Shown here piece after piece: positions 4,135 through 42,943 of a DNA stretch of 44,397 nucleotides. Both the position numbers and the translations under genes were made by a program. This DNA is from Boothiomyces macroporosus (Eukaryota > Chytridiomycota > Chytridiomycetes > Rhizophydiales > Terramycetaceae): positions 1 to 44,397 of the forward strand of contig JADGKB010000109.1 in assembly GCA_027604185.1 (NCBI GenBank). Direction: 5' to 3'. The number at the start of each line of letters is the position of its first letter. Positions within the stretch are counted from its first letter, which is position 1. The notes beneath the pieces were generated by a model. That model ran no database searches, was not told where the DNA came from, and was given only the letters and a program-made list of their open reading frames with translations.

Positions 4135-5274
4135 TTATGCTTTTCGTTTAAACACTTGGACAACATCTGAATCTTCAATTACATGGCTGAGCCCTACTCT
4201 TTGTGGTGTATGTTTTGCAGAAGTTCCCCACACTAGTGCAAACTTGAATTCATCAACCAAGCTTTTATGGATACCTTTACATACTTGTTCAACTGTTACT
4301 CCACGTTTAAGAATTAAACCACCATCAAAATCAGGATACTCTCCCCTCTTTTTAGTGTACACTCTAATCAAATCTAAATGGTGCCAGAGTTGGTGAATTA
4401 GGTAGTCCAAATTGATATCAGCCTCGCAAGATATAACTACAGTGTTATCTTGCCTTGCTAATCTGTCAACTTCTTCGATGGATACTTGGTCAATCTTGTT
4501 GTAGCAATAAATGCACTTGATATACTTGCGGTTTCCCAGTACAACATCAATGAATTGATCAACAGTCGCGACTTCTCTAATTAATACCTCAGCGTTATGA
4601 ATCTTGTAATCATGCAAAATACTGTAAACAATCTTTTGATTCAAGTGCGTTAGCGGACACGTTGCGTTAAAGAAAATACCGCCTCCTTTCTTTACTTTAA
4701 AGTAAATGTTTGGCCGTTTGGTATTGATTCTAATTCCGACAGCTTCCAATTCCATTTCCAATAGCTCACGCTGTTTTGGTCCTTTGGTTGCATCCAGCAT
4801 CATCTATTGTTAGTACAGAGTACCAGAATCAAATCAGCAGTTTGCGCTACAGCAATTACTTGCCTTCCTCTTCCAACACCTTGAGCAGCACCTTCAATGA
4901 TACCTTATTAGCAACAGAATACCTGGCAAATCAAGCAATTGAATTTGCGCACCATTGTATTGTATTTTACCAGGAATGCAAGTAAGAGTCGTAAACTCAT
5001 ATCCAGCAACTTCAGATTTAGTTTGTGTGCACTTGGACAATAATGTTGATTTACCAACACTAGGGAAACCGACCATGGCTACCCTAGCATCACCCGATCG
5101 AACTACATCAAAACCTTGGCCTTTTGGCCCAGCTTTTCCGGTAGGTTCCAACAGCATTGTTCGGTACTTGGCCAGCTTTGCTTTTAATAGACCCAAATGG
5201 TATTCGGTAGCTTTGTTTTTCTGAGTCCTGTTGATTTCTCTTTCGATATCCGCAATCTTTTCCAGAATCCCCAT
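4135..5274 (-). CDS. RBG2: DRG2/Rbg2-type developmentally regulated GTP-binding protein (366 aa, 2 tiny introns)
   Basis: Obg-like translation GTPase. The N-terminus [20 protein letters not shown] is typical of the DRG family. G1 is [10 protein letters not shown]3 is DLPG, G4 is NKID, and the C-terminal TGS-like domain includes [17 protein letters not shown]. The segments MMLDATKG and [12 protein letters not shown] match DRG2 rather than DRG1. DRG proteins act with a DFRP partner on ribosomes. Two introns restore the frame: 4904-4922 (19 nt), inside the G3 region after DLPG, and 4804-4823 (20 nt), which carries a perfect TACTAAC branch site six bases before its end. Splicing gives [20 protein letters not shown] between the exons, as expected for the family. 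Length is close to the usual 364-367 residues. It is convergent with the F-box gene, stops 10 bases apart. Confidence 0.93.
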
Positions 5275-5456
5275 TTTAGATTGTGAAAAACTTTGCTCTT
5301 TGGAAATTGTTTTGTAATTTCAACTGGCCATTTCATGCATCATTCATCTATGGAGGGTTAGTAACACGGGGACGTTCTCTTTTGTCCGCACACTTCATCT
5401 CGCCTAAGAGACATAATAGTAGCTATAATAGAATGCTAAATAACAGTATTTATTAT

Positions 5457-5879
5457 TTATTTCTTGGAGACACCACGGACCTTCTTTGGTCTCAATGGCT
5501 TTGGTTCTCCTTGAGATTGAATGATTCTAGATACTCTGGCAAGGGCAGCATCAACCAAATCTGGTCTGTATTTTCCAAGGATATTTTTGACAGATTTAGC
5601 GACTTGTCTAACGTTTCCTTTCAAAGTGATGTTAATGTTGGCTGATTTAACTTGAAGTCCAGCGTTTTGCTTCTTGATGGTCAAAACAACTCCCTTTTCT
5701 GCTGGGGTAATGGTAACAGACTAATTGTTAATATAAAGTACTTTTGGAGAGAATCCAGTCAATTTGAGGGATTGCTTGTTGAGCAAGTTTCCAGCTTCCT
5801 TTGAGAGTTGAATTCCGTTACGCTTAACGAGGGAAGAGGTGTTTGCGCGGTTCAAGAGCCAAGTAAGATCAGAGGACAT
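5457..5879 (-). CDS. RPL28: 60S ribosomal protein eL28 (133 aa, 1 intron)
   Basis: Large-subunit ribosomal protein of the eL28 family, absent from budding yeasts but present in most other eukaryotes. The protein starts MSSDLTWLLNRANTSSLVKR and ends in the basic tail PKPLRPKKVRGVSKK. KYRPDLVDAALARVSRIIQSQ matches the conserved C-terminal half. One intron of 21 nt (5721-5741) separates FSPK from SVTITPAEKGVVL. Its length is a multiple of three, but its last codon in the reading frame is TAG, so unspliced message would terminate there. A CCCTAACCCT element lies 67-76 bases upstream of the ATG (see the regulatory entry). Same strand as DRG2, about 180 bases upstream of it. Confidence 0.93.
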
Positions 5880-6384: not shown

Positions 6385-7361
6385 ATGACCTCTAGCAAAC
6401 ATGATTTCTGGGTGAACTTTGGGGCTGGAGGAGCTGCAGGCCTAAGTAAATATTTTTAATATATAGTTGGAGCTACAATAACATGTCCCTTGGAAGTAGT
6501 TAAAACAAGACTGCAATCATCGTTTTATAGATCACAAGAAGTAGCGCTGCAATCAAGAAATCCTGTTAGGATAGCTGCTCATCATATGGTCGGTGTAGTA
6601 GGAATATTAAAAAATATTTATCAGACAGAGGGAATAACGGCCTTGTGGAAAGGACTTGGGCCAAACTTAGTTGGTGTAGTACCAGCGAGAGCTGTATATT
6701 TCTCTGTCTACAACAAAGGAAAAGCGATATATAGTAAATGGAATGGCGAGGAGAATTCCAAAGTCCACATGATATCAGCCTTCACAGCTGGTTTAGCTAC
6801 TGCATCATTCTCCAATCCAATCTGGCTGATTAAAACTCGAATGCAATTACAGTCCGAGCAAGTAATTAAAACCGGGATAGTACAGTACAAAAACTCTTTT
6901 GATTGCGCAGTTAAAGTATTTAAACAAGAAGGAATAGTTGGATTCTATAGAGGCTTCTCTGCTTCAATGCTTGGATTAGGTGAATCTACTTTTCAATTTG
7001 TGATGTATGAATATTTCAAAAAGAATATCTTGGTAGTAAAGCAAAAGAAAGATCCAGATGCGACATTAAGTAATAACGATCTAACGTAGGTGTTGTGGAG
7101 ACTACTGTTGCTTCAGCTACTTCTAAATTTATTGCTGCTGTTACAACATATCCACATGAAGTTATTCGTACAAGGCTAAGACAGACTCCGCAAAACGGGG
7201 TGAGGAAATACACTGGATTGGTGCAGTGTGCTAAACTTATTTACAGAGAAGAGGGCATGATTGCATTGTATGGTGGTATGGCTGCCCACTTGATGAGGGT
7301 AGTACCTAATGCTGCCATTTTGTTTGTTTCATATGAGCTTATAATGTCATTCATAAAGTAA
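6385..7361 (+). CDS. RIM2: Mitochondrial carrier, pyrimidine nucleotide type (Rim2/SLC25A33/36-like; 311 aa, 2 introns)
   Basis: Inner-membrane carrier with three tandem repeats, each with the carrier signature: PLEVVKTRLQ, PIWLIKTRMQ and PHEVIRTRLR. The Trp in place of the acidic residue in repeat 2 (NPIWLIKTR) and the third motif YPHEVIRTRLR are typical of the Rim2/SLC25A33/SLC25A36 group, which moves pyrimidine nucleotides into the matrix. The start is the ATG at 6385 (MTSSKHDFWVNFGAGGAAGL). Introns are 6446-6466 (21 nt, in-frame TAA) and 7070-7089 (20 nt, CTAAC branch site). Splicing joins DATLS to VVETTVASATSKF as in the homologues. Length is normal. Substrate specificity is inferred from family motifs. 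Confidence 0.88.
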
Positions 7362-8740: not shown

Positions 8741-10408
8741 TCAAAATGTTTCGATTAGACAAGCCATCGACTTATTTCCTGCCAGAATCCTGTTGATGTT
8801 GTCTTTCAACAATTTCTGTGGAACTGAATACCACCAATTTTTCGTATTGATTGAGATGGTGCGAATAGGAGTGTTCTTCAATGCACATACCATATAGATC
8901 AAGCCTTCTACTGATATTACTTGCCCTTCAAGACCAAGATTGACGTGTTGAATGGTAGAATTTAGAATCCCATGTGTAAGATTTAAAAGTCCTTTGTTTG
9001 ATAGTTTTGTACGGTAGAAAGAAACCTTTGCCAAGTTTGAATCCCGGTTATGCCATTTGAAAATGTCACATGTTGCATTTGATAGAGCCATTCCAGTCAA
9101 GCTTAATTGCTTTAATTTTGACGTCTTCTTCAAACAACTAAAGACTTTTTGTATTCCAAACTGCCCAATTTTCGAATCTGTCAATGTCAAGATTTCTAGT
9201 GGTAGACTATTCAAACATTGTGAGAGTATCGCGGCTCCATTGTCTCCAAAATGATCCTTTTGCCCACAGATTTCCAATTCTTTAATGCTGCAAGTAAGCA
9301 TCGAGCGCAGTATCTTGTTCAAGTAGACGTTGCTGAAATCAAATTTGACGTATTCAAAGCTACGATTTGCAAAGTTTTTGGCAAGAGCGTCTCTAGAATT
9401 TTCAGCGATTCCTTTGAGCGCCAAGTGCTTTATCTTTGTCAACCTCAAGTTTTGATAAATTAAATGCATGCAATCTGATTGAAAACAGTTTTGTGTAAAG
9501 TCAAACTTGAGCAGCTTTGAAAACGGGATGATTACACTAAAGCGAGTCAGAGAGTGTTCTGTCAAGCGATTGAAAGATAAATCTAACGATGTAATTTTTG
9601 AATATGGGAGAGCTTCGGCAATTGCTTGAGCTCCTTGATCCCCAATACCGTTTCCCTGCAAATCCAATATTTCTATAGTAGTAAAAGGTAAAGTTCTACC
9701 AAGTTGCACTGCAATGAGATTGGTGACCATACCAGTTAACCGCAATTTCTTGATTTTTGTTTTTGGCAAAGCATTAAAGAAATTGGTCCAATCGTAAGTC
9801 AATGGATAGTCAATCAGTTCCAATTCGCTGATATTCAATAAAGGCAGCATTTGGAAAAACAGTGGCCAGTTTAAATGAACGTTTTCCAAAACTAGGGCAT
9901 CCAAACGCTTGATGAATGGAAAGCACATCACGTTAGAATCGCAAATTGGAATACCACTAAATGAAAAATGAGTAACTCTGCTGAATGTAAGCAAGAAGGA
10001 CAAATCAGATCCGAAATCTCTATAAATTGGTTGATTCTTTTGTGTAAAATGGTTTTCTATAACTTTGAGTGTCTTAGAGGGTGGTAGATAGTCATGAATT
10101 CTAGAGTACAATGAAAACTCGATGGAAATTTCTTTAAACACAAATCTACATTCCTTTAGCTTTTTGATTTTTTGAATTTGTTCATAGCGGTTCACATTCA
10201 ACGCGTCATAAGACAATTCCAATCTTGGCCAGATTTGTGCTTGCTTGCCTTTTGCCATACACGAGCTAATAATTCGAAATGGCTTTAGAAACATGTTAAA
10301 GTGCTTGTTTAGACAAGAGAGTGTCAATATATCCTGGCTGGAGAGTAATTCAATCAAGGAGAATTTGGTTTCGAGCGGAATAGCTTGCAAGTCCATGATT
10401 CTTTCCAA
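8741..10408 (-). CDS. F-box/leucine-rich-repeat protein, third paralogue (555 aa)
   Basis: F-box-like N-terminus (MDLQAIPLETKFSLIELLSS, then QDILTLSCLNKHF) followed by RNI-type leucine-rich repeats. The clearest are IEILDLQGNGIGDQGAQAIA and ITSLDLSFNRLTEHSLTRF around residues 235-290, with further repeats to the C-terminus. The first ATG (10406-10408) adds four residues (MERI) before the MDLQ start shared with the other two copies; the ATG at 10394-10396 is an alternative. It is a single exon on the opposite strand from the tandem pair and about 4.6 kb away. SCF substrate-receptor function is inferred from the family. Confidence 0.8.
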   Translation of the reverse strand: MERIMDLQAIPLETKFSLIELLSSQDILTLSCLNKHFNMFLKPFRIISSCMAKGKQAQIWPRLELSYDALNVNRYEQIQKIKKLKECRFVFKEISIEFSLYSRIHDYLPPSKTLKVIENHFTQKNQPIYRDFGSDLSFLLTFSRVTHFSFSGIPICDSNVMCFPFIKRLDALVLENVHLNWPLFFQMLPLLNISELELIDYPLTYDWTNFFNALPKTKIKKLRLTGMVTNLIAVQLGRTLPFTTIEILDLQGNGIGDQGAQAIAEALPYSKITSLDLSFNRLTEHSLTRFSVIIPFSKLLKFDFTQNCFQSDCMHLIYQNLRLTKIKHLALKGIAENSRDALAKNFANRSFEYVKFDFSNVYLNKILRSMLTCSIKELEICGQKDHFGDNGAAILSQCLNSLPLEILTLTDSKIGQFGIQKVFSCLKKTSKLKQLSLTGMALSNATCDIFKWHNRDSNLAKVSFYRTKLSNKGLLNLTHGILNSTIQHVNLGLEGQVISVEGLIYMVCALKNTPIRTISINTKNWWYSVPQKLLKDNINRILAGNKSMACLIETF

Positions 10409-11063: not shown

Positions 11064-12472
11064 ATGATCTTGGGAGTATTATTCGTATCGTATTCATCGA
11101 GAGGACATCAATTGGTATTCGCTTATCCAGAAATCAAGGACGACAATTTCCTGGGATTCGACCATGGATTCCTTGCTGGTAAGATTAGCTTAACCCGGAT
11201 ATGCTCTCCCCCAAAGTCGCTCTCTGCGATAAACAATTCCATATGCGTGTAAATAAGATTGATTTCGTTGGCCATCCTACACTATTAAATGTAGACAGAC
11301 CCGGCTCAGGATTGATTTATTCTCGCAAAGTACAAAAATCACTGCTCAAAACCACAAAGCTATCTCCACTAACAATGTTTCATTTGGTATTCGCTTTGAC
11401 AAATGTCAGCAAAGAAGAAATCGATCAGATATACGATCAGATTATTCTCAAGTTGACGATGGGATTCAAATACGAGCAACTGCGAAGAGGCTACATCCGA
11501 AATGAAACAGAGCTAATTCTGAATCTAAAGGACGAAAAAGACAAGAAGACAGCGTTTGAAATCAATAATGCAGTTTTGGAAAAAAGCAGCTTGGCTAAAA
11601 CGCTTACAAATATATATCACTGTATCCTTGATCAGCAATCCTGCCACTTTAAGATCAACAACTCGGTGTTCATCTCAATTAATGGAAACCCAATGCATAT
11701 TGAAACTATAAACACTCCAACTATCCGTCCATATCACGGACTCTTGCTTTTGAATGACCCAGAGCATATATTAATGTCATTGCCCAAAGATAGCTCACCA
11801 TTACTAATTTCACTTATTCAAACAGTTACCCCAACCACTAATTTTGAACAGTTGCAATCTATTTTAAATTGTTCGCTATCGCAATTGTACAAGCACGCCG
11901 CGCATTTACACTACTGGAATCAAGCTAGAATTATACAAATTATATCCACTAAAAACTTTTACGTGCTTTCAGAAACCGCGACTTATGATAAAATACAAGA
12001 GCTGAAAGTAGAGTTCAGCAATAGATTTTCCCCATTAGACTTGACTAGTCTATTAAATAGGATATCCATACCAAGACATTATAATTCTATAATACAAAAC
12101 AAGGATCTGCGACACTTGTATTTAGAAGCTATAACATTTCTATTACGTCATTGTTTAATAGTTCAATTACACATGTACTTGCTTCTAATTATTCCCGAAT
12201 CTATAGTGCAGAAGGTAGATCCATCACAGCACAGACAGATAATAATTAGCGATCCAGCTAACCCATCTCTATTTGAGAGCGAGCTCATCAAACAGTTTAT
12301 TAAAGAGCAGCATAATCCGCAAATCAAAAACTTGCTTACTCGTTTAGTCCCGTATATGAATGGTAAAGTGCATCTTGATGAAATCACGTTTCAAGAAAAT
12401 ATGACCAGAAAAGAGTTGAAGCTAGTTCTTGGGCACTACCGTGATGAAATTGTTACTACTTTACACCAATAA
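11064..12472 (+). CDS. NPR3: Npr3/NPRL3, GATOR1 (SEACIT) complex subunit (462 aa, 1 non-canonical intron)
   Basis: Subunit of the GATOR1/SEACIT GTPase-activating complex that restrains TORC1 when amino acids are scarce. The N-terminus MILGVLFVSYSSRGHQLVFA matches the conserved NPRL3 start. The hallmark block KIDFVGHPTLL follows, then LTMFHLVFALT. The helical C-terminal region is weakly conserved but complete in length. One intron is needed between FLA and DMLSPK. The best placement is 11179-11198 (20 nt), with a GTAAG donor and a CTTAAC branch site but GG where AG is expected. A canonical GT-AG alternative is 11179-11216 (38 nt); it keeps the frame but removes DMLSPK and makes the intron nearly twice as long as any other here. 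TOR itself lies 3.6 kb downstream. Confidence 0.87.
11179..11198 (+). other. NPR3 intron with apparent GT-GG ends
   Basis: It has a GTAAG donor and a CTTAAC branch-like motif followed by CCCGG. An A at 11197 instead of G would make a standard 20-nt intron. Colinear alignment to NPRL3 (FLADMLSPKVALCDKQF against the human ILATILATKSEMCGQKF region, recalled rather than computed) supports the 20-nt version over the 38-nt version. Confidence 0.55.
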
Positions 12473-12964: not shown

Positions 12965-14438
12965 ATGTACAAGAGAATTTTAACCAACTCTACAAAATCT
13001 GTAATCCATTACTAATTGTAGCTCAATGCGCGCTTCTATTCTGCAAAACCACAGGTATTTTATCCTAACCCCAGAACCTCAAGGACCGTTTAGCAGAAAT
13101 CATTCCTGCAAAACAAGCGGAAATCAAGGAAGTAAAAGCTAAATATGGAAACAGAGTGCTAGGCGAAACTACTGTTGATATGGTATTATTTTTTTAATGG
13201 CAGGCATACGGTGGTATGCGTGGTATCAAAGGTATGATTTGGGAAACCTCTGTATTAGATGCCGATGAAGTAATCTACTCATTAATGTCAGGGTATTCGT
13301 TTCCGTGGATATACCATTCCTGAATGCCAAAAATTATTGCCATCTGCTGATGATGGTGAAGAGCCATTGCCAGAAGCATTATTCTGGCTGTTGGTTACCG
13401 GAGAAGTCCCAACCAAGGAACAAGTTAAACAATTATCTGCTGACTGGGCAGCCCGTTCTGCCATCCCTGACTATGTTGAAGATATTTTAGATAGATGCCC
13501 AAACACTCTTCACCCAATGTCACAATTCAGTTTGGCAGTTTTAGCTCTCCAACACGAAAGCAGCTTTGCTAAAGCCTACGCAAAAGGAGTTTCAAAGACC
13601 CAATACTGGGACTACACCTATGAAGATGCCAATGATTTGATTGCTAAACTGCCACTGATTGCTGCCAGAATTTACCGCAACGTATTCAAGGATGGAAAAG
13701 TTGGAAGCATCGACCCTAAACTTGATTACTCTGCCAACTTTGCTCACCTTTTGGGTTACACTGATCCTAAATTTGTTGATTTGATGCGTCTTTACTTGAC
13801 CATCCACTCTGATCACGAAGGTGGTAATGTCAGGTAATTGCTCAACTGATTATAGTGCTCACGCTACCCACTTGGTTGGTTCTGCTCTTTCTGATCCATA
13901 CTTGTCCTTCTCTGCTGGTCTTAATGGACTTGCTGGACCACTTCACGGTCTTGCTAACCAAGAAGTATTAAGATGGACCCTCAAGATGAAGGATGAAATT
14001 GGCCTTGGTGCTTCTGACGAAGCTATCCGTGAATACATTTGGAAGACATTAAAGTCTGGACAAGTTGTTCCTGGGTTTGGCCATGCTGTCTTGAGAAAGA
14101 CTGACCCACGTTACACTTGCCAACGTGAATTTGCTCTTAAACACTTGCCAACTGACCCAATGTTCAAACTAGTATCACAACTTTACAACATTGTTCCAGG
14201 AGTATTGACTGAACACGGAAAGACCAAGAACCCATGGCCAAACGTCGATGCTCACTCTGGTGTCTTGTTGCAACACTACGGATTTGTAGAACAAGATTAT
14301 TACACTGTGTTGTTTGGTGTTTCCCGTGCTCTAGGTGTTATGGCTGGATTAATTTGGGACCGTGCTCTAGGTTTACCATTAGAAAGACCAAAGTCTTTAA
14401 GCACAAAATCTATTATCAAAATGTTTGAAAAGAAGTAA
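12965..14438 (+). CDS. CIT1: Citrate synthase, mitochondrial (455 aa, 5 introns)
   Basis: Condenses acetyl-CoA and oxaloacetate to citrate, the first TCA-cycle step. The N-terminus [20 protein letters not shown] is a typical matrix-targeting presequence. Catalytic motifs are all present: [11 protein letters not shown] (first His), [16 protein letters not shown] (second His) and [12 protein letters not shown] (Asp). Introns are 13001-13021 (21), 13055-13074 (20), 13183-13203 (21), 13270-13291 (22) and 13834-13855 (22). The first two 21-nt introns both contain in-frame TAA. Splicing restores [31 protein letters not shown] and [13 protein letters not shown] exactly as in the family. Four of the five introns lie in the first quarter of the gene. 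Codon choice looks more biased than in the F-box genes, as expected for high expression. Confidence 0.97.
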
Positions 14439-14513
14439 TTTCTTGACTATTTTATCCTGCAATAAAGCTCTGACGTGTTAATCTAATTGAAATGCCTTTT
14501 TTATTTGGATTAA

Positions 14514-15032
14514 TCAAAGCAGTAGAATCACCCATTGCAGGAAGGAAGGTATGGCTGTTGAAGCGATGGATTTCGTAGTGGTGGTTGAGCCAGCGATGGA
14601 GGAGTTTGAGCCAGAACAATCTGCAATGGAACAGTATTGCTTAAATTGCTTGCACTGCGACATGCCAGACATTTCACCACACAGAGTCAAATACGCCTTG
14701 AAAACATTACAGTTGCTAACCCCATTAACTGGAGGTGGACACAAGTTACATCCCTGCATCATTGGCATTTCGTTACAGATTCCTGCAACTAAGCTGGATG
14801 CGTTTTTACTATTTGGGACAGTATCCAAAAAGCTATTTGTGCAAGTACTACAAGTCGGACAGCTACTGGAGTCTTGGCAGAGGTAGTACCCCAATTGGGA
14901 GCAATCTTTTCCTTTCAAGCATTGGGTTTGATAGACGTAGCAGTACGGAGAGTTGTTACTGGAATCACACACCTTTGAAGGGTCTGGAATTTGAGCAATT
15001 GCGGCAGTAAACAAAACAGCAGAAACCAACAT
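14514..15032 (-). CDS. Secreted Cys/Met-rich protein with two CxxMxxMxxC motifs, probable GPI anchor (172 aa)
   Basis: A signal peptide (MLVSAVLFTAAIAQ) is followed by a cysteine-rich body. Two spaced motifs, C86-x2-M89-x2-M92-x2-C95 (CNEMPMMQGC) and C118-x2-M121-x2-M124-x2-C127 (CGEMSGMSQC), have the geometry expected of Cu(I)-binding thiol/thioether sites. A Ser/Thr-rich segment (residues 140-160) and a short hydrophobic tail (IPSFLQWVILLL) look like a GPI-attachment signal. Single exon, same strand as the DUF1775 gene, 120 bases from it. The pairing with a putative copper protein suggests cell-surface copper capture or buffering. This is inference; I do not recognise a named family. Confidence 0.7.
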   Translation of the reverse strand: MLVSAVLFTAAIAQIPDPSKVCDSSNNSPYCYVYQTQCLKGKDCSQLGYYLCQDSSSCPTCSTCTNSFLDTVPNSKNASSLVAGICNEMPMMQGCNLCPPPVNGVSNCNVFKAYLTLCGEMSGMSQCKQFKQYCSIADCSGSNSSIAGSTTTTKSIASTAIPSFLQWVILLL

Positions 15033-15152: not shown

Positions 15153-15761
15153 CTAAAGAGCCATCATCAAAAAGATACTTTGAATTGCAAGGCTGTAAGA
15201 GTAGCTTTTAGATAAAGACTTTACGGATTGCATTTGCGCTTGTACAAATGTCCCATTGAACTGCACCAACGTATTGTTGGCCATTGCCACCAACGATGGT
15301 GCAGGGAATTGCAAAGGTACACCTGGCCCTGGGATCTGAGTCCAGTTGTTTGATCCAACCACACATTGCTGGATAACAGGAAAGTAGAATTTCGTGCCAT
15401 CGGTAGCAGGAAATGGCAGCTTCACGGATAACGGAAATTCTTCAAATTCAGAGTCTGGCAGGTTACCATCCGTCCATGTAACACTGTCAATTTCAGTGGT
15501 AATAACTGCACCGCTCTCAGAGGTAATTGGCGTATCCAAGTTTCTGGTGGAAGTAAGCAGTCTCCAGCCATAGATTTTCTTTGGTTTAACTGAAGTTACA
15601 CCTTTTGGAATTTGAACTGTGACTTGTAGGGTGTTGGTGGAGTTGCAGCCATGTGGAACACGGACAATAAAAGCAGCGTACGCGGAGTTTGTGACTGGGG
15701 GATTGATTGTAGCATGAGCAAGTACAGTACCAGCGATTAAAGCAATCGAGTGAAGCATCAT
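15153..15761 (-). CDS. DUF1775 (YcnI-like) putative copper-binding surface protein (202 aa)
   Basis: A signal peptide (MMLHSIALIAGTVLA) is followed by HATINPP, so cleavage after Ala15 would expose an N-terminal histidine. DUF1775/YcnI proteins bind Cu(II) through that N-terminal His. Diagnostic blocks are FIVRVPHGCNSTNTLQVTVQ, IPKGVTSVKPKKIYGW (with the conserved Trp), SVTWTDGNLPD, FYFPVIQQC and the PAPSL near the end of the domain. A C-terminal hydrophobic stretch (SLAIQSIFLMMAL) preceded by Ser-rich sequence may be a GPI signal. The family is best known from bacteria, where it sits beside copper-uptake genes. In a fungal genome it suggests old transfer or a poorly studied eukaryotic branch. 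Single exon; neighbour of the Cys/Met-rich gene. Confidence 0.85.
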   Translation of the reverse strand: MMLHSIALIAGTVLAHATINPPVTNSAYAAFIVRVPHGCNSTNTLQVTVQIPKGVTSVKPKKIYGWRLLTSTRNLDTPITSESGAVITTEIDSVTWTDGNLPDSEFEEFPLSVKLPFPATDGTKFYFPVIQQCVVGSNNWTQIPGPGVPLQFPAPSLVAMANNTLVQFNGTFVQAQMQSVKSLSKSYSYSLAIQSIFLMMAL

Positions 15762-23532: not shown

Positions 23533-24345
23533 ATGGCAGAAAGAAAAGTTTTGAACAAATATATCCCACCTTCATACAACCCTAATGTACAGCTCCGTTC
23601 CGGTGGTAGTAGAAGGGCCAAGGTACGTTTAATGGCACCTTTTTCTATGCAGTGCAACACTTGTGGAGAGTATATTTACAAGGGAAAGAAATTTAATGCC
23701 AAAAAGGAAAAAGCCCTTGGGGAAGATTACCTTGGAATTATCATCTACAGATTCAAAATCGCCTGTCCTTGCTGTGCAGCAGAAATCACATTCAAAACCG
23801 ACCCCAAAAACACCGACTATGTCGCCGAAAGAGGAGCACAGCGTAACTTTGAACCATGGAGAGACGAGACAAGATCGCACCAGGAAGTAAAAGCAGACAA
23901 ATTAAAAGAAGAAGAAGATAATCCAATGAAAGCCTTGGAAAACCGCACAATTGAATCAAAACGAGAAATGGACATTCTTGATGCTTTAGATGAAATCAGA
24001 ACTAAAAATGCAAGGATAGACAGAGCTGATGTGGACGAAGCGTTGAATAGAATCCATGAAAAAGAGACACCTGAAGAAATTGAAGAAAAAGACTTTGACA
24101 AGGAGGATGAAGAATTAGCTAGGCAAGTTTTCCATGATTTGGATGGAGAAAAAGTACGCAGATTGGTCGACGAGCCATTCAAAGAGTTTAAGAAGCCTGA
24201 GCCAGTAGTAAAGGAAATGAAACCAACCGATCTTGGTATTAAAAAGAAGCAAGCATCAGAGTCGATACTGGGAATCAAAAGAAAAGCGCCGTCAGAAAAA
24301 CCAGTGAAATCTCTGGTTGTGGATTACGGTTCTGATTCTGATTAA
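23533..24345 (+). CDS. YJU2: Splicing factor YJU2/CCDC94 (270 aa)
   Basis: Yju2 joins the activated spliceosome near the branch site and promotes the first splicing step. The N-terminus MAERKVLNKYIPPSYNPN is diagnostic. VRLMAPFSMQCNTCGEYIYK and FKIACPCCAAEITFKTDP supply the four Cys of the zinc site, followed by NTDYVAERGAQRNFEPW. A charged helical region contains NPMKALENRT. The tail is lysine-rich and ends VVDYGSDSD, an acidic end. Single exon. The linker between the start motif and VRLMAPF (residues 17-31) is short and Arg/Ser/Gly rich. The role in splicing is notable here because nearly every multi-exon gene in the window has 19-22-nt introns. Stop lies 20 bases from that of the convergent neighbour. 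Confidence 0.95.
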   Translation: MAERKVLNKYIPPSYNPNVQLRSGGSRRAKVRLMAPFSMQCNTCGEYIYKGKKFNAKKEKALGEDYLGIIIYRFKIACPCCAAEITFKTDPKNTDYVAERGAQRNFEPWRDETRSHQEVKADKLKEEEDNPMKALENRTIESKREMDILDALDEIRTKNARIDRADVDEALNRIHEKETPEEIEEKDFDKEDEELARQVFHDLDGEKVRRLVDEPFKEFKKPEPVVKEMKPTDLGIKKKQASESILGIKRKAPSEKPVKSLVVDYGSDSD

Positions 24346-31900: not shown

Positions 31901-34900
31901 ACAGATTTGGCCAGATGCTTTAGTCAACTTGAATCAACTAGAAAAGGCTGTGCAATTGGATATTACTGAGGGAAATGTAAACTTGATTGTTAATGCCGCC
32001 GAAATTGTCAACACAATTGTACACACTAAATCTTTGGAATGGATTTCTGAAAATGTGGGGCTCTTCCAAAGGTGTTTGGAAAAGTGGGGTGCAACTGACA
32101 ATGCACAATTGCTATCGATTGTTTCAAAGATCATCACTAGGGTGTGTGAATGTTTAGACTCTGACTCTATTCCTGGATCAGCCTCTAGAAATGCAGAGAA
32201 GCAAAGCTTCCTAAAGGCCGTAGATGCTAGGATACATGATAAATTGAAGACTGGGGTTTCTAATATAGTGTCCACTGCTGCTATGTTAGATGCAGCATAT
32301 TACAAAAGAATCAGGTTACCTTCGGCCGTCCAGTCTATTCGTGCAAACATTTCTGATATGGTTCGAATTCTCCAAAGTGTCGTGAATATAACTTTGGAAA
32401 ATATTGCAAATGAAACCAACCTGGACGAAAAGCTCGATAGTATCAAAGTTTTCCTCCTGATCATCAACAACCAAATGCATTACCTTGGGGAATCAAGAAG
32501 GATTTTTATAACAGTTATTACGCAATTACTGGAAAATGCCGAAATTACAGCCATGCATAAAGTTATCTTGGACATGGTTAGAAAATGGATTTTAGAAAGT
32601 CCAGGAGAGGCCTTCCCAACGATAAAAGAAAAGTCCTCTTTGGCTGTAAAGTTGTTCTGCTTGCAAAATTATTCAAATTCTAGTCTATATGAAGAATATC
32701 TCAATTTTGTGGCAGATATATACGAAGACGAAACTTTACTGCGAACGGAAATCACCGTCAGGCTGGAACATGTATTCTTGGAAGGTACAAAGCATTCAAA
32801 TCCAACAATAAGGTGCCGATTTTCCGACATTTTAAACAAGTCCATTCCAACCTCTGTGGTTACAAGGTTAAAGTATATCATCAGTGTTCAAAATTGGCAG
32901 AGTTTAAGTGAATCATTCTGGATTAGCCAGGCGTTGGATTTGATGATGGGATCGATTGTTACTGATCAGTTAGTCTACAACTGCAACAGTGGTGAAAGAT
33001 TATCTTTTCTCTCCATGAATACAAGCGCCGCAGAGTCTATCAGTCCAGAAATAGAAAGTTTGGTTGAAAAAGAGAAAGAGTTCTTTAGCTTGATAAAGTC
33101 TCAGACCTTGGATTCAGTCATCAACCCAATCAGGCACTTTATTTACGACAGTGTTCAACTTTCTTACACTCTTTGGGTGAAATTTTTCCCAATTTTTTGG
33201 AATAACTTGGACTTTTCGGATAGACATGATCAGGCAAAGTCTCTGATTGGACTTTTGGCCAACGATTACCACCAAGCTCAGGTCAACTCTCGACCAAATG
33301 TGATTCAAGCATTGCTAGAAGGTGTGTGCAAGACCAATCCTCCAATTAGACTCCCACCTCAATTGGTTAAATATCTAGGAAAAACTTACAATGCTTGGCA
33401 TATCGCGATGGAACTCTTGCAAGACACTGTCAACGATGACGGGTTAGTTTTAAGTGGAAACCAAAAAGATGATGAAAAGATTAGAGATTCATTTATGGAC
33501 GCCCTTGCTGATATTTATTCCGAACTTTCAGAGGAGGACTATTTTGCAGGAATTTGGAGAAGAAGATGCCTTTTTCCAGAAACAAACGCAGCAATTTCGT
33601 TTGAACAAGCCGGAATGTGGCAAGCAGCCCAGAGATTCTATGAAAGTGCTCAAGCGAAAGCGCGAACTTGCGTCTTGCCATTTACAGAATCAGAGTACTA
33701 TTTGTGGGAGAAGCAATGGATAAAGTGTACAGAAAGACTGCAGCAGTGGGACATTTTGTGTGATTTGAGCAAGCATGATTCTGATCCAGAACTTCTTTTG
33801 GAATGCGCTTGGAGACTTTCTGATTGGAATGTGGATAGAGATTCCTTAAATATGACTCTTCAATCTGTAATTCAACCGCACACCCCAAGAAAGAAATTGT
33901 TCCAAGCGTTCCTCATTTTGAATCGTCTTAACGAAGGACAGGAATCAGTCGCAGAGTTCCAAAAAGTGTGCGAGGAGGGAATGCAGCTAACTCTGAAAAA
34001 GTGGTACTCTCTTCCTTCAATCATCTCCTCTGCCCATATTCCAACATTCCATACGTTCCAACAGTTTGTAGAATTACAGGAGGCATGTTCTATTCAAACA
34101 AATTTACTTGGAACCAATGCTCAAAATATTGACTCAAAGTCACAGGAATTGAAAAATATTCTTTCCACTTGGAGGGACAGATTGCCAAACGTTTGGGATG
34201 ATATGAACATATGGAGTGATTTAGTGGCGTGGAGGCAGCGTAATTTCTATTTAATTATTAGATGTTTTTACAGCTATTAACAAGGCTTATCTACCTCTGA
34301 TTCCACACATCGCAGCTCCACCAAATGGAGGCTCGCCGACTTCTTCCTATGCTTATAGAGGATATCATGAAACTGCTTGGATCATCAATAGATTTGCACA
34401 TGTAGCTCGCAAACATCGATTGCCCGACGTTTGCATCAGTTCTTTGGGCAAAATCTACACTTTGCCAAATATTGAAATCCAAGAAGCCTTTTTCAAACTT
34501 CGTGAACAGGCTAAATGTCACAAAGATGTTCTCGGAGAAGATTCGATTGGATTAGATGTGATTAATAATACAAACTTGCTCTACTTTAATGCGGCGCAAA
34601 AGTCAGAGTTCTTTGCTTTAAGAGGATCGTTCTTGGCGAAACTTGCACTTCATGATGATGCTACACATGCGTTCTCTTCTGCGATTCAAGTTGATGTCTC
34701 TCTCCCAATTGGATGGGCTAGCTTTGGGGAATACAACGATAGAATGTTTGACAATAATCCTACAGAGTTGAAATATGCTGCCGATGCCATTAACAGCTAC
34801 TTGCATGCTGCTGAAATCTACAATAATAACAAATCCAGGAAGTACTTGTCAAGGATACTCTGGCTATTATCATTAGATGATAGTCAGGGTCAGCTCATGA

Positions 34901-37039
34901 AAGGAGTGGAGGCATATAAAGCGGACCCACCAGTTTGGTACTGGATTACTTTTATTCCAGAGTTGATTGGTTGTTTATCTGGAAAGGAAGCTAAATTTGC
35001 GAAAACGATTCTGATCAAAATCGCCAAAACCTATCCTCAGTCTTTGCACTTCCAACTTCGCACTGCCAAAGAAGATTTTGCGGTTTTAAAGAGTAGGGTT
35101 ATGGCTCAGGCACAAAACAACTCTGGGGCTAATCAAAGCAAACCTGAAGACAAGTTGGATGAAAGTGGTGATGTGAATATGGAAGATTCTCAAACCGATA
35201 ATAAAACGGACACCAAGGATGGCAGTCAAATCGATGAGACCCAAAACTCTCAACAGACTACAACCAGTGGTCAATTCCCTACTCCTACGCCATGGGATAG
35301 TGTGGAGGAGGTTATGGGAATCCTGAAAACTGCATTCCCACTTTTGGCGCTAACTATGGAAAAGATTGTAGATCAAATACTTGTGAGACTAAAGCCTGCA
35401 ACTGATGAAGATATCTACCGTCTAATCGTTGCGCTTTTAAATGATGGCGTTCAGGTAAGGTACCATTTAATGCCAGATGTACATTAGTCAGCTGCCAAAG
35501 TTCCCTGATGCTGCAGGACCACTTTACGGACAAACTGAAGCAAGTTTGCAGCGCTTTGCTGAAAGTATGACTCCAAATCATGCAAAGGTAAGCTATGAGT
35601 TGATCTCAGTACAAGGAAAAGTTTGAAAGAGATTTTATTCATTCAAAGCCAAACTTGGCTCAGCTGGTTGAGAAATTTAGAATTTGGCGGGATAACCTTG
35701 AAGTTCTATTGGATAGCAGGCCAAGAACGCAAAATCTAGAACACTTTACACAATACCTTGCAGAGTTTGAGTATTCAAAGTTTGATGAAGTGGAAGTGCC
35801 AGGGCAGTACTTTGGGGTAAGGATTTCATTAACATTAGTTGAAAAGCTCAAACAAAGACTTCATCAGAATTGAACGATTTGATCCTCTTTTTGATATCTT
35901 CCGCAATTATCAAGGATGCTACCGAAGAATTGTTATCCGCGGTCATGATGGCAGTATCCATCCATTCATACTCCAACACCCTGCAACCAAGCAATGTCGC
36001 CGTGAAGAGAAAACCAATCAATTCTTTAGATTGCTGAATGAGTAAGATTTCTCTAATTCTAGTACATTGGACCGACGAATTGGAAGCCGAAGTCGCAACT
36101 TGCACTTTAGTTTGCCAATTGTAGTTCCCCTAGCACCACAAACACGACTGGTTCAAGATGACCCTTCAAATGTATCACTTCAGGAAATTTACGAAGATTA
36201 TGCCAAGAAGAATGGATTCAAGAAAGACGACCCTATCATTTATTATACCAATAGACTCAAAGAAGTCTATAAAGCCACCGATTGTACCAAAAAGACAAAG
36301 AATGAAATGGCTGTTTTGAAAAGCGAAATTAATCAAGAAATTTCAGAAAAGATGATCCCAGACACGATTTTATCAAACTACTTTAATTCACGAATGGCTA
36401 CATATGAAGATTTGTGGACGATAAGAAAGAGGTTTACCAATCAAATGGCCTGTATTACATTTATGACATTTTTGCTGAGTGTTGGACAACGGCAACCTCA
36501 GAAATTCAATATATCCTGCGAAAAAGGCAATGTTTGGCAATCTGAATTCTATTCTAGTGCATTTATTTCTAACCTTAGCTATATCCTCTCAGACATTCCT
36601 TTTCACGTGCAATGAAGCAGTTCCATTCCGATTGACACCAAATATCCAAAAGTTCATTTCACCAATTGGACTGGAGGGTCTTTTTAGTAATAGCTTGGTT
36701 ACTATTGCTAATGCTTTGAACGAGCCGGATGCATCATTGCCGTTCACCACCAATGACCTACGCAACTACTTGAGTTTGTTTGTTAGAGATGAATTATTGG
36801 CTTGGCATGCTGCAAATAGAAAGCCTCAATTTGCTAATGTTCAGCGGCTAAGGGAATTGGTAAACCAGAATGTTGAGCAATGCCTAAAGAGAGTTCAACT
36901 GTTGTCTTGCAAGGTGGCAAGATCTCAGGCTTATGACAGCACTGCTCCAGTTAATCAATCTGTTTTGGATTTGATTTCGAATGCTACCAACCCACTTAAA
37001 CTGGCTCAAATGGATATATTATTTTTACCGCAACTTTAA
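25912..37039 (+). CDS. TRA1: Tra1/TRRAP, pseudokinase scaffold of SAGA and NuA4 (3618 aa, 13 introns)
   Basis: Tra1 links transcription activators to the SAGA and NuA4 acetyltransferase complexes. HEAT repeats fill most of the protein, with near-yeast blocks such as ELYVELC-like LFVELCLTVPVRLSVL and SLRTLELCIDNLNHEFLEPI. The FAT region includes WRRRCLFPETNAAISFEQAG, PDVCISSLGKIYTLPNIEIQ and QLRTAKEDFAVLKSR. The pseudokinase starts near residue 3263 (IVIRGHDGS) and contains NEAVPFRLTPNIQKF but no catalytic loop. Introns: 25915-25936, 26127-26145, 26541-26559, 26648-26667, 27202-27221, 27488-27506, 31221-31241, 34240-34261, 35455-35476, 35588-35609, 35817-35838, 36042-36062 and 36557-36578 (lengths 22,19,19,20,20,19,21,22,22,22,22,21,22). 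The first sits directly after the ATG. An acidic insert lies at about 35140-35260. Joined CDS is 3619 codons including stop. Confidence 0.97.
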
Positions 37040-37171: not shown

Positions 37172-38513
37172 TTAAATCTTTGATTTAGAAGACAGTGCAG
37201 CAACACCAGGCAATTCCTTTCCTTCTAAAAGTTCTAATGAGGCACCTCCACCAGTGGAAACATGAGAGAATTCGGCTAAATTAAAAGAAATATACCTTCT
37301 CTTCCAGCCTTGGCGACTGCTGTAGCAGTGTCACCACCACCGACAATAGTAGTTGCACCGTTCTTGAATGCAGTAGCACAAGCTTCAAGCAAGGAGTTTG
37401 TTCCAGCAGCAAAGTTGTCAAATTCAAACACACCAGCTGGTCCGTTCCAAAGGATAGTCTTTGCAGCTAAAACAGCCTTCTTTGATTCTTCGTTGGTCTT
37501 TGCACCACAGTCAAGTCCCATTAATCCATCAGGGATACCCTCTTCTTTGGTGGCATAACCAACAGTAGCGTCAGCTGCAAACTTGTCAGCAGTGGTAAAG
37601 TCCAACGGCAAATACAATGAAACTCCGTTTTTCTTTGCCTTTTCCAAAAGACGTGGAACGATTTCAGCACCATCTTTGTCAAACAAGGAACTTCCAATCT
37701 TGGTTCCTTCCATAACTTTGAGGAAAGTGAATGCCATACCTCCGCAAATAATCATGCTGTTGACTTTGTCCAACAAGTTTTCAATCAATAAAATCTTGTC
37801 TGATACTTTGGCACCTCCTAAAATAGCGAGGAAAGGTGATTCTGGGCTTTCAAGCGCTTTTGCGAAAAAGTCTAATTCCTTCTTCATCAAAAATCCAGCA
37901 GCTTTGATAGGGAGATTGACACCAACCTAATATTAGTAATAATCACCATGGAAGAGTGAGCTCTGTGTGCGGTACCAAAAGCATCGTTGACGTAGATATC
38001 ACCAAGCTTTGACAAAGATGCTCTGAATTTGTCGACATCTTCCTTGGCAGCCTTGGTCTTGTTTCCATCCTTGTCCTTTACTGATCCTTCTTCTTCAATG
38101 TGGAATCTCAAGTTTTCCAATAAAACGATTTCGCCTTTAGATGGGTTAGCACAGTGCTTTTCCACAGCATCGCCAACGCAATCATTCAAGAAAGTAACTG
38201 GCTTTCCAAGCAATCTGGAGACTTCATCTGCAACAGGCTTCAATGAATATTTTGCAACAACTTTACCATCTGGTCTTCCCAAGTGAGACATGAGGACAAC
38301 AGATTGAGCGCCTGGATTAAGCACCAATTACCTTTTTCAAGGACATACTTGATGGTTGGCAATGCAGCTACGATTCTTTGGTTGTTGGAGATCTTTCCGT
38401 CTGCGAATGGCACATTGAAATCAACACTGGATCAGATGAATGAGTTACCGAATGAGAATTCTCTTTCCAGAGACTTCCAATCCTTCCAAACCTAACTTTG
38501 AGCTTAAAGACAT
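37172..38513 (-). CDS. PGK1: Phosphoglycerate kinase (419 aa, 4 introns)
   Basis: Glycolytic enzyme making ATP from 1,3-bisphosphoglycerate. The start is [20 protein letters not shown]. Substrate-site blocks are [16 protein letters not shown] and VLLENLRFH, then [20 protein letters not shown]. Nucleotide-site blocks are [19 protein letters not shown] and GGGDTATAV, followed by [16 protein letters not shown]. Introns on the minus strand are 38427-38448 (22), 38312-38331 (20), 37927-37946 (20) and 37276-37295 (20). Each restores a conserved junction, such as LIR/VDFN and HSSM/VGVN. Length is normal (about 416). It is divergent from TPI with 210 bases between the ATGs and convergent with TRA1 (stops 132 bases apart). 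Confidence 0.97.
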
Positions 38514-38723: not shown

Positions 38724-39552
<829 letters not shown>

Positions 39553-39769: not shown

Positions 39770-39791
39770 TATTACTCATTTTTCCAAAGAG

Positions 39792-39823: not shown

Positions 39824-40633
39824 ATGGAAATACAACAATTCGAAATCAACGATCAACACCAGCAAGTTGGTGAAAGAAACACTGTAGTCGTACTAGATAA
39901 CACAGAACATATCGCATCTGGAGAAGAGCGGCTTCATCGTCACCAACACTACTCTCAAAGAGCAAACTGGCTAAGAGCGGGCGTACTGGGCGCCTCTGAC
40001 GGTTTAGTCTCTAATAGCTCCATTATCCTAGGTATTCTAGCAGCAAACAAACCACAAGTGGCAGTACTAACAGGATTATCTGCCCTAGTTGCTGGGACAA
40101 TATCAATGGCGCTGGGGGAATACATTTCTGTCTCTAGCCAAAGAGATACTGAAGAAGCGGATATAAAACTGGAACGTAAAGAACATGAAAAAGGAGGTCA
40201 AACTGCTATTGAAGAATTTGAAGAGCTAAAGTTGGGTTACATTGAGAAAGGACTATCTCCAGAAACTGCACATTTAGTAGCTACAGAGTTGCACGGTCTA
40301 CATATCGATAAAGTTGTACAAATACATGTTAGAGAAGAATTGGGAATTGATGTTGATGATTTAACTAACCCATGGGAAGCTGCTGGTGCTAGTGCCATAG
40401 CATTTGCAACTGGTGCTGCTCCACCATTGATTGTAGTTGCTATTACTACTTCGCAAATCGCATCTGTTCTGATTGCTGTTGTTTGCGGAGTATTTCTCTT
40501 GGTATTTGGCGGTATTGGTTCCCATCTGGGTGGTGGAAGTATTTGGAAAGGCAGTTTAAGAGTGTTTATCGGTGGGATGATTGCCATGGGTGCTACGTTT
40601 GGCATTGGGGCTATTTTTGAACACACTGGATAA
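39824..40633 (+). CDS. CCC1: VIT/CCC1-family iron(II)/manganese transporter (269 aa)
   Basis: Vacuolar iron transporter family, which moves Fe2+ or Mn2+ from cytosol into the vacuole in exchange for protons. The soluble N-terminus (about 50 residues, with HRHQHYSQRANWLRAGVLGA) is followed by TM1 with SDGLVSNSSIILGI, TM2 (VLTGLSALVAGTISMALGEY), a charged cytosolic metal-binding segment rich in Glu (RDTEEADIKLERKEHEKG, then EEFEELKLGYIEKGLS), and three C-terminal helices (SAIAFATGAAPPLIVVAIT; SVLIAVVCGVFLLVFGGIG; VFIGGMIAMGATFGIGAIF). Length is typical and it is a single exon. It lies upstream of a multicopper oxidase on the same strand, so metal homeostasis may link them. Vacuolar location is inferred. 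Confidence 0.93.
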   Translation: MEIQQFEINDQHQQVGERNTVVVLDNTEHIASGEERLHRHQHYSQRANWLRAGVLGASDGLVSNSSIILGILAANKPQVAVLTGLSALVAGTISMALGEYISVSSQRDTEEADIKLERKEHEKGGQTAIEEFEELKLGYIEKGLSPETAHLVATELHGLHIDKVVQIHVREELGIDVDDLTNPWEAAGASAIAFATGAAPPLIVVAITTSQIASVLIAVVCGVFLLVFGGIGSHLGGGSIWKGSLRVFIGGMIAMGATFGIGAIFEHTG

Positions 40634-41266
40634 CAACTTGTACATTTGCCTTGGACATTCACTCAAATAAAATATTCCATTTGGGCATTCGGAAGCTTTT
40701 TGGTGATTCATTTCGTATGAATATCTTTGAAGATAATTTTATTTTGCGTACCAATATTGAAAGCAAAACAAGTGTAAACTTGCTCGACATGTTTGCAAGG
40801 TAATCAACATCAATGAGAGCCCTGTTACATTTTGATTTGGACGAACGAGACCTTTCCTTTCATTGAAAATGTGAGACCAATTTCCCGAGTATGAGGTGAT
40901 TTGCGGAGGTCAAATTTACCGATTTAATGTGAATCATCTTTTGTGTCCACGTACCCCGGTGGTTAAGCGGTGCCACCCTTCTTTGGTGATGTTTCATCTA
41001 CGGCTTTTAATTTGGGACTAAACAATCATGAACAAGCCTCAAATATACTTTTGGATGGTTTTACTCAATAACATGGCGATATCACTGCACATCAAATCAT
41101 TAAGATGATGGTAATCAGCAGCACCAATTTACCGGCTACAATTTCATGGACATTTTTGTGATCAAAAAAAAATCTTTTTGTCTTACACAAAACAGGGGAT
41201 GTGGCTAAATCGATATAAAAGTCTGGCAAATTGATCAAGAATTTTCAATAATAAACATAGAAAAAA
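40634..41266. other. Intergenic region upstream of the multicopper oxidase
   Basis: No gene is seen in these 633 bases. It contains a weak GGTGG/CCACC hairpin (40958-40977, 10-base loop) and a TATA box (TATAAAA, 41214-41220) 46 bases before the oxidase ATG. No tRNA-like structure was found. Confidence 0.5.
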
Positions 41267-42943
41267 ATGAAGTTGTTTGTCCTTCCAATCTTGGCTCTAG
41301 CACAAAAAGTAGTAAAGTATACTTGGGCAATCACCGAGATCACTGATGCCCCTGACGGGTTTGAAAGAAAGGCTCTTGGAATCAACAACACTCCTGGGTA
41401 TATGAATACCGTAGAAGCTAATGAAGGTGACACTATCCAAGTTACAGTCACCAACAAACTTGCAGTTCCTTCGGCTATTCACTGGCATGGCATGTACCAA
41501 AACGGGACCTTGGAAGCCGACGGCCCAGTTGGTAAATTACACCTAATTCTAGGAATCACGCAATGTGCCATTCAGCCAGGGAAAACTTATATTTATCGCT
41601 TTGAAGCCTCTCGTGTGGGAACTTTCTGGTGGCATGCTCACTTTGGTCCCGAATACGTTGATGGCTTAAGAGGACCATTGATTATTCACATGAAGAACGA
41701 GCCCTACATTAACGATTACGACTACGATTACACAATCCAACTGACTGACTGGTACCACGAATCTGCTGACGTGCTTGCTGCCAACTATTTAAACCCTACC
41801 TTGAATCCAAGTGGAAACGAGCCTGTATGGTCTGCTGGCCTGATTAATGGAAATGGAAGATACAACTGCACTGCCACTGAAAGTGCCAACTGCAACAACA
41901 ACCACCCTCTTTCTCAATTTACATTTAAAGCTGGCAAGAGATACCGTCTAAGATTCATCAACATGGCAGCTTTCGCAACCTTCAATGTGTCTATTGCGGA
42001 TCACTCTATGCGTGTGATTGAAGTTGACGGTACTGTAGCCGATGGCAAGCAACAAGGAACTAGCTTGTTTATCAATGTCGCTCAAAGATACTCTGTGATT
42101 GTTGTTGCTGATCAAAAGCCAAAGCAGTATGTATTGTCTGCCATTATGCTTGATAACAGTCCATTCACTTCATTACCAGTAGATCAAGAAGATGCTGGTT
42201 TGGTTAAAACTTCAATTGCACTAATTAACTATCAAAGCTGTGGCAGACTTGGTAAAGAATATCCTGTACACCAATTGCAGGATATTGATACTACAGCTGT
42301 TGCTCCACTTGATCCACAAACAATCCCTGAACCAACTAGAAAAGTAAACTTTGAATTCATCTTCCAAAATACAGACTCTGATCCAGTTAATAGAGCCTAT
42401 GTCTCTTTTGATGGTTTAAAGACAAACAACACTTATTCATTCCCTACAGGAACCCCAACCATCGTAGATGTTGTACAAAACAAAGTGCTGACAAAAGACC
42501 TGCCTGCAAATCTCAATGCTGTTGAAATTAACCATGGTGAAGTTATTGACATTGTAATTATCTCTCATGACGGTGGGGAGCATCCGCTTCATTTACACGG
42601 CCATGATTTCTGGATTATGGGTAAAGGTACTGCTGACTCGAACGACAAGATCCCAACCAGCTTTGATATTGCAGATCCAGTGAAAAGGGATACCGTCACA
42701 GTTCCATCCTGCAACACCGATGCAAACGGTGCTTGTATTGGAGTTGCTTGGACTGTATTAAGGTTTGTTGCAGATAATCCTGGAATATGGATTTTCCATT
42801 GCCATATCGACTGGCACTTGATTGCTGGCTTGGGAATGACCTTTATCGAATCTCCAAAGCTTGGGCAATCACCGAGATCACTGATGCCCCTGACGGGTTT
42901 GAAAGAAAGGCTCTTGGAATCAACAACACTCCTGGGTATATGA
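41267..42943 (+). CDS. Laccase-like multicopper oxidase, 3' end disrupted by a tandem duplication
   Basis: Secreted copper oxidase. Signal peptide MKLFVLPILALAQ. Copper motifs (numbered in the unspliced frame) are HWHG (72-75), WWHAHFG (121-127), HPLHLHGHDFW (439-449) and HCHIDWHLIAGLGM (511-524), with Leu522 at the type-1 axial position. A 21-nt intron (41532-41552) splits DGPVG from ITQCAI; its frame has no stop, so the ORF also reads through it as KLHLIL. The gene is normal to SPK at 42859. A perfect copy of bases 41322-42859 then begins, two bases out of frame, and the ORF ends in an unrelated tail at 42943. The true C-terminus is not in the window. Substrate (phenols or Fe2+) cannot be told. 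Confidence 0.85.
   Translation: MKLFVLPILALAQKVVKYTWAITEITDAPDGFERKALGINNTPGYMNTVEANEGDTIQVTVTNKLAVPSAIHWHGMYQNGTLEADGPVGKLHLILGITQCAIQPGKTYIYRFEASRVGTFWWHAHFGPEYVDGLRGPLIIHMKNEPYINDYDYDYTIQLTDWYHESADVLAANYLNPTLNPSGNEPVWSAGLINGNGRYNCTATESANCNNNHPLSQFTFKAGKRYRLRFINMAAFATFNVSIADHSMRVIEVDGTVADGKQQGTSLFINVAQRYSVIVVADQKPKQYVLSAIMLDNSPFTSLPVDQEDAGLVKTSIALINYQSCGRLGKEYPVHQLQDIDTTAVAPLDPQTIPEPTRKVNFEFIFQNTDSDPVNRAYVSFDGLKTNNTYSFPTGTPTIVDVVQNKVLTKDLPANLNAVEINHGEVIDIVIISHDGGEHPLHLHGHDFWIMGKGTADSNDKIPTSFDIADPVKRDTVTVPSCNTDANGACIGVAWTVLRFVADNPGIWIFHCHIDWHLIAGLGMTFIESPKLGQSPRSLMPLTGLKERLLESTTLLGI
41532..41552 (+). other. Stop-free 21-nt intron in the multicopper oxidase
   Basis: GTAAAT donor, CCTAATT branch-like motif, CTAG end, phase 1. 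Removing it gives DGPVGITQCAI, which matches the family (DGxxGxTQCPI). Keeping it inserts seven codons without a stop. The second copy carries the same intron at 43070-43090. Confidence 0.75.

Follow-up and report, generated by a model that had tools for sequence, protein, structure and literature searches.

Introduction

Intron populations that fall as a whole into an ultrashort size class have been published for heterotrich ciliates (15–16 nucleotides, nt), mikrocytids (16–17 nt), and the chlorarachniophyte nucleomorph (18–21 nt) (PMC10245619). In Stentor coeruleus, the Cwc25 protein is without the glycine-plug motif, and the authors suggest that changes of this type keep the protein from colliding with the tight lariat (PMC9505925). 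Populations of this kind are on record for ciliates, for a rhizarian parasite, and for relict nuclei, and in some of these the spliceosome is altered or reduced. Within the fungi, Cryptococcus neoformans is described as having relatively short introns, with a mean of 63 bp, in a survey covering 644 genomes (PMC8476143). Here we analyze predicted introns of 19–22 nt in the chytrid Boothiomyces macroporosus, based on a stretch of 44,397 nt (contig JADGKB010000109.1 of assembly GCA_027604185.1; hereafter the window) and on samples from the rest of the genome.

An initial annotation of this DNA had likened the intron sizes to those of ciliates and chlorarachniophyte nucleomorphs and had known of no fungus in this range. 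The former comparison is appropriate for heterotrichs and chlorarachniophytes and extends to mikrocytids (PMC10245619). The latter statement agrees with our search: no fungus whose introns as a whole lie close to 20 nt was found in the literature covered, in which subscription journals and preprints were thinly represented, nor was anything found there on chytrids with tiny or ultrashort introns. No such fungal population is reported in the intron- or genus-related passages of PMC8476143, PMC11649378, PMC13391722, PMC8371127, and PMC10406608.

Predicted introns in eleven genes of the window

The 11 genes rebuilt from DNA contain 44 inserts of 19 (6), 20 (18), 21 (10), or 22 nt (10), which reproduces exactly the number and the lengths given in the initial annotation. 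All 44 inserts begin with GT and 43 end with AG. The donors are GTAA (26), GTAT (9), GTAC (4), GTAG (2), GTGA (1), GTCC (1), and GTGC (1), so that GTAA and GTAT, previously described as typical, are indeed the commonest classes, the AG end having one exception in NPR3. Ten genes, all but the multicopper oxidase gene, were rebuilt end to end. None of the ten has an internal stop after splicing, whereas each of them, when read unspliced, is interrupted by a stop codon between residues 16 and 126.

Junctions with homologous proteins were compared for 30 of the 44 inserts (10 in TOR, 4 in PGK, 4 in TPI, 6 in TRA1, 3 in CIT1, 2 in DRG2, and 1 in NPR3), and the homologs are continuous across all 30. 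The TOR kinase gene (16052–23278, minus strand) has 10 introns of 19–22 nt, at 16249–16268, 17512–17532, 18502–18521, 18832–18851, 21261–21280, 22197–22215, 22753–22774, 22856–22875, 23002–23020, and 23151–23170; its product is 99% identical to that of Boothiomyces sp. JEL0838. Nine of the ten junctions are gapless against a Boothiomyces TOR protein (P0121). At the tenth (16249–16268), the Rhizophlyctis TOR (P0124) stays in register with one 1-residue gap, and P0121 reads into the insert, ending with the residues GGKHC before a stop. The public Boothiomyces TOR model has therefore overlooked a 20-nt intron, and the C-terminal end of the kinase is gone from it. As this case illustrates, catalogues of the genes of these chytrids may contain shortened models wherever introns were required to exceed some minimum length. 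At the junction 22753–22774, P0121 agrees exactly, P0124 has two residues fewer, and the Kappamyces TOR (P0123) has nine more.

The PGK gene (37172–38513, minus strand) has introns at 37276–37295 (20 nt), 37927–37946 (20 nt), 38312–38331 (20 nt), and 38427–38448 (22 nt). Its product matches the PGK of Terramyces sp. JEL0728 (P0001) at 410 of 419 residues (98%) with no gap, all four junctions being gapless, and is 86% identical to the Globomyces and Kappamyces proteins. Terramyces and Boothiomyces, the nearest named relatives by these two proteins, both belong to the Terramycetaceae (Rhizophydiales, Chytridiomycota). Public Terramycetaceae proteins run on without interruption at 13 of the 14 junctions examined in TOR and PGK, so the gene models of their depositors must already hold such introns; a published description of them was not found in the literature searched. 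The public model of the Kappamyces PGK (P0038, 356 residues) begins approximately 7–8 residues past the second PGK junction of B. macroporosus; judged from this start, tiny introns may have been overlooked in Kappamyces too.

The TPI gene (38724–39552, plus strand) has introns at 38810–38830 (21 nt), 38904–38923 (20 nt), 38997–39017 (21 nt), and 39098–39117 (20 nt), and its product aligns to chain 8v09_A with one 1-residue gap near the first junction. The TRA1 gene (25912–37039, plus strand), in which exon 1 consists of the ATG alone, has 13 introns of 19–22 nt. Seven of them are located at 25915–25936, 26127–26145, 26541–26559, 26648–26667, 27202–27221, 27488–27506, and 31221–31241. At the last six (34240–34261, 35455–35476, 35588–35609, 35817–35838, 36042–36062, and 36557–36578), the alignment to chain 9ynu_A runs on across the junction, two of the six showing a gap of 1 or 2 residues. 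Three CIT1 introns on the plus strand (13183–13203, 21 nt; 13270–13291, 22 nt; 13834–13855, 22 nt) are gapless against citrate synthase (1cts_A), as are both DRG2 introns on the minus strand (4804–4823, 20 nt; 4904–4922, 19 nt) against Ribosome-interacting GTPase 2 (chain 7nrc_So) and the 20-nt NPR3 intron (11179–11198, plus strand) against NPRL3 (chain 6ces_M).

Further introns rebuilt from DNA are two in the CIT1 presequence (13001–13021, 21 nt; 13055–13074, 20 nt; plus strand), one in the eL28 gene (5721–5741, 21 nt, minus strand), two in a mitochondrial carrier gene (6446–6466, 21 nt; 7070–7089, 20 nt; plus strand), and one in a tocopherol-cyclase-like gene (25492–25511, 20 nt, minus strand). 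The 21-nt intron of the multicopper oxidase gene (41532–41552, plus strand) was read from the sequence; its removal restores the multicopper oxidase motif DGPVGITQC.

Length distribution across the genome

The genome assembly comprises 15.2 Mb in 216 contigs, from which we sampled 20 stretches of 10 kb in addition to the window and to short loci known from earlier searches. Intron-like spacing was counted independently of gene models on both strands of 244,397 bases, the pattern being a GTA[ACT]N[TC] donor, then YTRAY, then a nearby YAG, and compared with 20 shuffles; a length was flagged at twice the shuffle maximum. The counts at 19, 20, 21, and 22 nt were 42, 54, 28, and 10, and those at the remaining 63 lengths between 14 and 80 nt had a mean of 4.5 and a maximum of 9. 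In the whole genome, the stricter pattern GTAATT-N(0-30)-CTAATNTAG gave 122 matches, compared to 7 for the pattern read backward. Among the first 100 matches listed, 90 were 19–22 nt long and 10 had other lengths from 15 to 45 nt; of the 90 distinct strings among those listed, 81 were 19–22 nt long. The 19–22-nt class is therefore not peculiar to the window.

A gene finder with an equal prior for every intron length from 10 to 200 nt was run on the window and on 29 loci (L001–L032 minus L005, L007, and L008). With codon usage alone, 77 of 180 introns were 19–22 nt long, and once the signals of donor, branch, and acceptor had been learned, 158 of 207 fell at 18–23 nt. Two stricter motif-based runs placed 100 of 174 and 116 of 214 introns at 19–22 nt. 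Another motif-based run, with an over-lenient penalty, returned 802 introns (140 of them at 19–22 nt) and was discarded, as it fused unrelated genes; a 20-nt call at 42936–42955 and a 106-nt call at 14435–14540 in the window were likewise rejected as artefacts. In a control of 65 genes with the flat prior, 154 introns of 18–26 nt and 42 of other lengths were called, and removal of the introns from the 65 genes reduced these numbers to 0 and 5. Long introns would have been detected, because implanted introns of 28–190 nt were recovered exactly in 91–127 of 154 cases. A prior favoring short introns gave 291 of 312 calls at 18–26 nt, a count that leans on that prior. All 37 called introns with a length divisible by 3 contain an in-frame stop, as forced by the caller.

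Two loci contain introns that stand back to back with no exon between them, namely L018 (minus strand; 57 nt = 19+19+19) and L020 (plus strand; 43 nt = 21+22), which hints at stepwise removal. The last 17 nt of a 108-nt call in L031 (minus strand), GTAATTGTTAATATTAG, may form an intron of their own.

Intron anatomy and splicing machinery

Intron anatomy was derived from 161 introns of 18–26 nt called with the flat prior and learned signals, counting the G of GT as position 1 and placing the branch with a motif trained on the intron calls themselves. The best branch adenosine was found at position 14 or 15 in 130 introns and lay 5–6 nt before the 3' end likewise in 130, and an exact YTRAY was present in 122. 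This shifts the branch site from the approximately 10–14 bases of the initial annotation. Donor positions showed A at +3 in 93%, A at +4 in 63%, G at +5 in only 13% (T in 45%), and T at +6 in 58%; the commonest hexamer was GTAATT (27 introns). The G+C content of the introns was 29%.

Genes for U1, U2 (two copies), and U6 were found, the U1 score of 68.8 bits being just under the cut-off of 69.5. Both U2 genes contain GTAGTA, the U6 gene contains ACAGAGA, and the U1 gene starts with ATACTTACCTG. These motifs are the parts of the three RNAs that recognize introns, and all of them appear canonical. The six protein factors sought, Slu7, U2AF65, SF1, Cwc25, Yju2, and Isy1, are all encoded, which speaks against a strongly reduced spliceosome of the mikrocytid kind. 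The family score of U2AF65 rose from 230.7 bits unspliced to 342.7 bits after removal of four introns of 19–20 nt, and thus past the cut-off of 310.3; this is an independent sign that the introns are genuine. Cwc25 starts with MGGGDLNLKKSWHP, identical to chain 6zym_t, with an intact glycine plug. Yju2 (CCDC94), a spliceosome branching factor, is encoded by an intronless gene within the window (23533–24345, plus strand; Pfam Saf4_Yju2, E = 2.9e-65; YJU2 chain 5yzg_Y, E = 1.9e-53) that was not on the earlier gene list; its N-terminal part aligns to 5yzg_Y apart from a gap of two residues close to residue 20. Isy1 was matched in pieces, the best of 56.8 bits, from model position 4 onward.

Several candidate losses were examined and rejected. 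A loss of Slu7 had been expected, on the basis of yeast work, because of the short branch-to-AG distance, and was ruled out by the presence of Slu7. The loss of SF1 or U2AF65 was ruled out, both being encoded, as was that of the Cwc25 plug, given the retained MGGGDLNLKKSWHP.

Evaluation of alternative explanations

We conclude, with a probability of about 0.92, that the inserts are ordinary U2-type spliceosomal introns held at one fixed geometry and likely removed singly by a largely canonical spliceosome. Judged by sequence, the assignment to the U2 type would follow from the GT-AG ends, a branch able to pair with U2, and the U1, U2, and U6 genes. Nearly all introns share a single size class only a few nucleotides wide, as in the published ultrashort populations, with a minority of longer calls remaining.

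Several observations weigh against this conclusion, most of them concerning length. The shuffles gave approximately 2.5 cases per length compared to 4.5 in real DNA outside 19–22 nt, and real DNA lies somewhat above the shuffles at every length. One extra length, 56 nt, was flagged (9 cases versus a shuffle maximum of 4), and 22 nt stayed below the flag (10 versus 7). Longer calls are not all background, as seen from the 42 other-length calls in the control genes versus 5 in their intronless versions. Even under the short-favoring prior, 21 of 312 calls lay outside 18–26 nt; two of these split exactly into adjacent short introns, and many of the other 19 have no branch motif close to the AG. 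Many of those 19 may be gene-finder errors, and a few may be genuine longer introns, such as one of 40 nt in L021. The 21-nt introns with no in-frame stop escape the flat-prior finder, so that this class is under-counted; the multicopper oxidase intron, whose length is a multiple of 3 and which has no in-frame stop, was overlooked by the learned-signal run. In addition, 39 of the 161 introns have no exact YTRAY, and the NPR3 insert ends with CGG instead of AG. Because the spliced NPR3 protein aligns to NPRL3 with no gap at the junction, the CGG is likely either an uncommon acceptor or the result of a wrong base.

The length observations could mean that intron lengths are mixed and that 19–22 nt is merely the class most easily visible to our methods. 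We regard such a mixture as quite unlikely, since all 44 introns of the window are 19–22 nt long, most of the implants of 28–190 nt were recovered, and no other length in the spacing count came near the 42, 54, and 28 cases at 19–21 nt. Removal of the inserts as DNA, in the manner of the internal eliminated sequences of ciliate development, would fit short, AT-rich, precise inserts, which resemble ciliate elements in size. This is highly improbable, however, as the donor, branch, and acceptor signals are matched by the U1 and U2 of the same genome, and no somatic nucleus is known in fungi. Errors of sequencing or assembly that insert short stretches might be suspected from the broken NPR3 acceptor and from an exact repeat at the end of the window, but the constant length, the motifs, the position within conserved proteins, and the continuity of the relatives' proteins across the inserts leave this explanation a negligible chance.

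A spliceosome remodeled to handle tiny introns, as suggested for Stentor with its lost Cwc25 plug and changed Isy1 N-terminus, is unlikely, though less so than the preceding alternatives. The donor-to-branch distance of 14–15 nt leaves little room, Yju2 deviates from 5yzg_Y around residues 16–30, and Isy1 was matched only piecewise. On the other hand, the start of Cwc25 is identical to that of 6zym_t, and U1, U2, U6, SF1, U2AF65, and Slu7, which cover part of the machinery, look ordinary. A visibly remodeled machinery is thus not supported by the three RNAs or by SF1, U2AF65, Slu7, Cwc25, and Yju2, all of which look ordinary overall, and a subtler adaptation may exist. The initial annotation had proposed both a spliceosomal-type population of 19–22-nt introns in a fungus and an adapted machinery; the former part is supported, and the latter, in its visible form, is not.

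Proposed splicing mechanism

If the inserts are ordinary introns at a fixed geometry, U2 would bulge the branch adenosine, leaving a lariat loop of 14–15 nt and a tail of 5–6 nt, and the first AG downstream of the branch, 5–6 nt on, would be used. U1 would pair up to about +6, and as the branch pentamer starts at +11 or +12, 4 to 5 nt would lie between them. With such a gap, U1 and U2 would be exchanged rather than share the intron for any length of time, with an early transfer of the donor to U6. Once U1 is swapped for U6, the branch adenosine may attack over the 14–15-nt loop. A donor held chiefly by U6 and U5 would fit both the low frequency of G at +5 (13%) and the A at +4 (63%), and the loss of the +5 G may weaken U1 pairing and thereby ease the exchange. 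A loop of 14–15 nt would need no change of Cwc25 of the Stentor type, provided that the introns are spliced.

The two arms of this ruler may directly mark the steric minimum that the active site allows, and pressure toward short genes could have driven the entire population there. It appears reasonably likely, on sequence grounds, that a fungus with an unreduced canonical spliceosome has independently fixed all its introns on a ruler of 14–15 nt from donor to branch adenosine plus 5–6 nt, that the size floor of introns is a property of the RNA active site rather than of a remodeled or pared-down set of proteins, and that donors at this floor lose the +5 G.

Other features of the window and the assembly

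Three intronless genes with similar starts are located at 825–2459, 2508–4124, and 8741–10396; two of them match leucine-rich repeats in Pfam, and the first shows only a weak F-box match under the cut-off. Positions 1–256 appear, on visual inspection of the motif SPDLNPIENIW, to hold the end of a gene for a Tc1/mariner-like transposase. A DUF1775 protein is encoded at 15153–15761 and a VIT family protein at 39824–40633. The multicopper oxidase region (41322–44397) forms a head-to-tail repeat up to the end of the window with a spacing of 1,538 nt and 100% identity across the 300 nt compared, and its second copy has the 21-nt intron again (43070–43090); the repeat is either a recent duplication or an assembly fault. 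Identical match scores were obtained on the separate contigs C49/C100, C20/C31, and C1/C173, with identical gene models on C49/C100, and the paired contigs are perhaps haplotype duplicates in the assembly.

Comparison with known short-intron systems

A fungus that combines introns of approximately 20 nt with all six factors sought would make the minimum-intron problem testable near the yeasts with solved spliceosomes. The introns of B. macroporosus share with those of microsporidia a place on the fungal side of the tree and a relatively short length, whereas microsporidia have few introns and a reduced spliceosome (PMC10245619). Mikrocytos mackini (16–17 nt) likewise has a narrow class of extremely short introns with conserved sequence, but it is a parasite with 224 introns and a highly reduced spliceosome (PMC10245619), in contrast to a 15.2-Mb genome that keeps SF1, U2AF65, and Slu7. 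The chlorarachniophyte nucleomorph (18–21 nt) has an almost equal size range (PMC10245619); however, it is a relict algal nucleus of extreme reduction, and the present introns belong to the nucleus of a fungus. Stentor coeruleus (15–16 nt) resembles B. macroporosus in its one narrow class of GT-AG introns, a branch adenosine approximately 5 nt from the 3' end, a full set of major small nuclear RNAs, and a most abundant intron that also starts with GUAAUU (PMC9505925). The two differ in intron length and in the donor-to-branch distance, which is 10–11 nt in Stentor and 14–15 nt in the 19–22-nt introns described here, and B. macroporosus is a chytrid, hence a fungus, with a clear YTRAY branch motif and a retained glycine plug in Cwc25.

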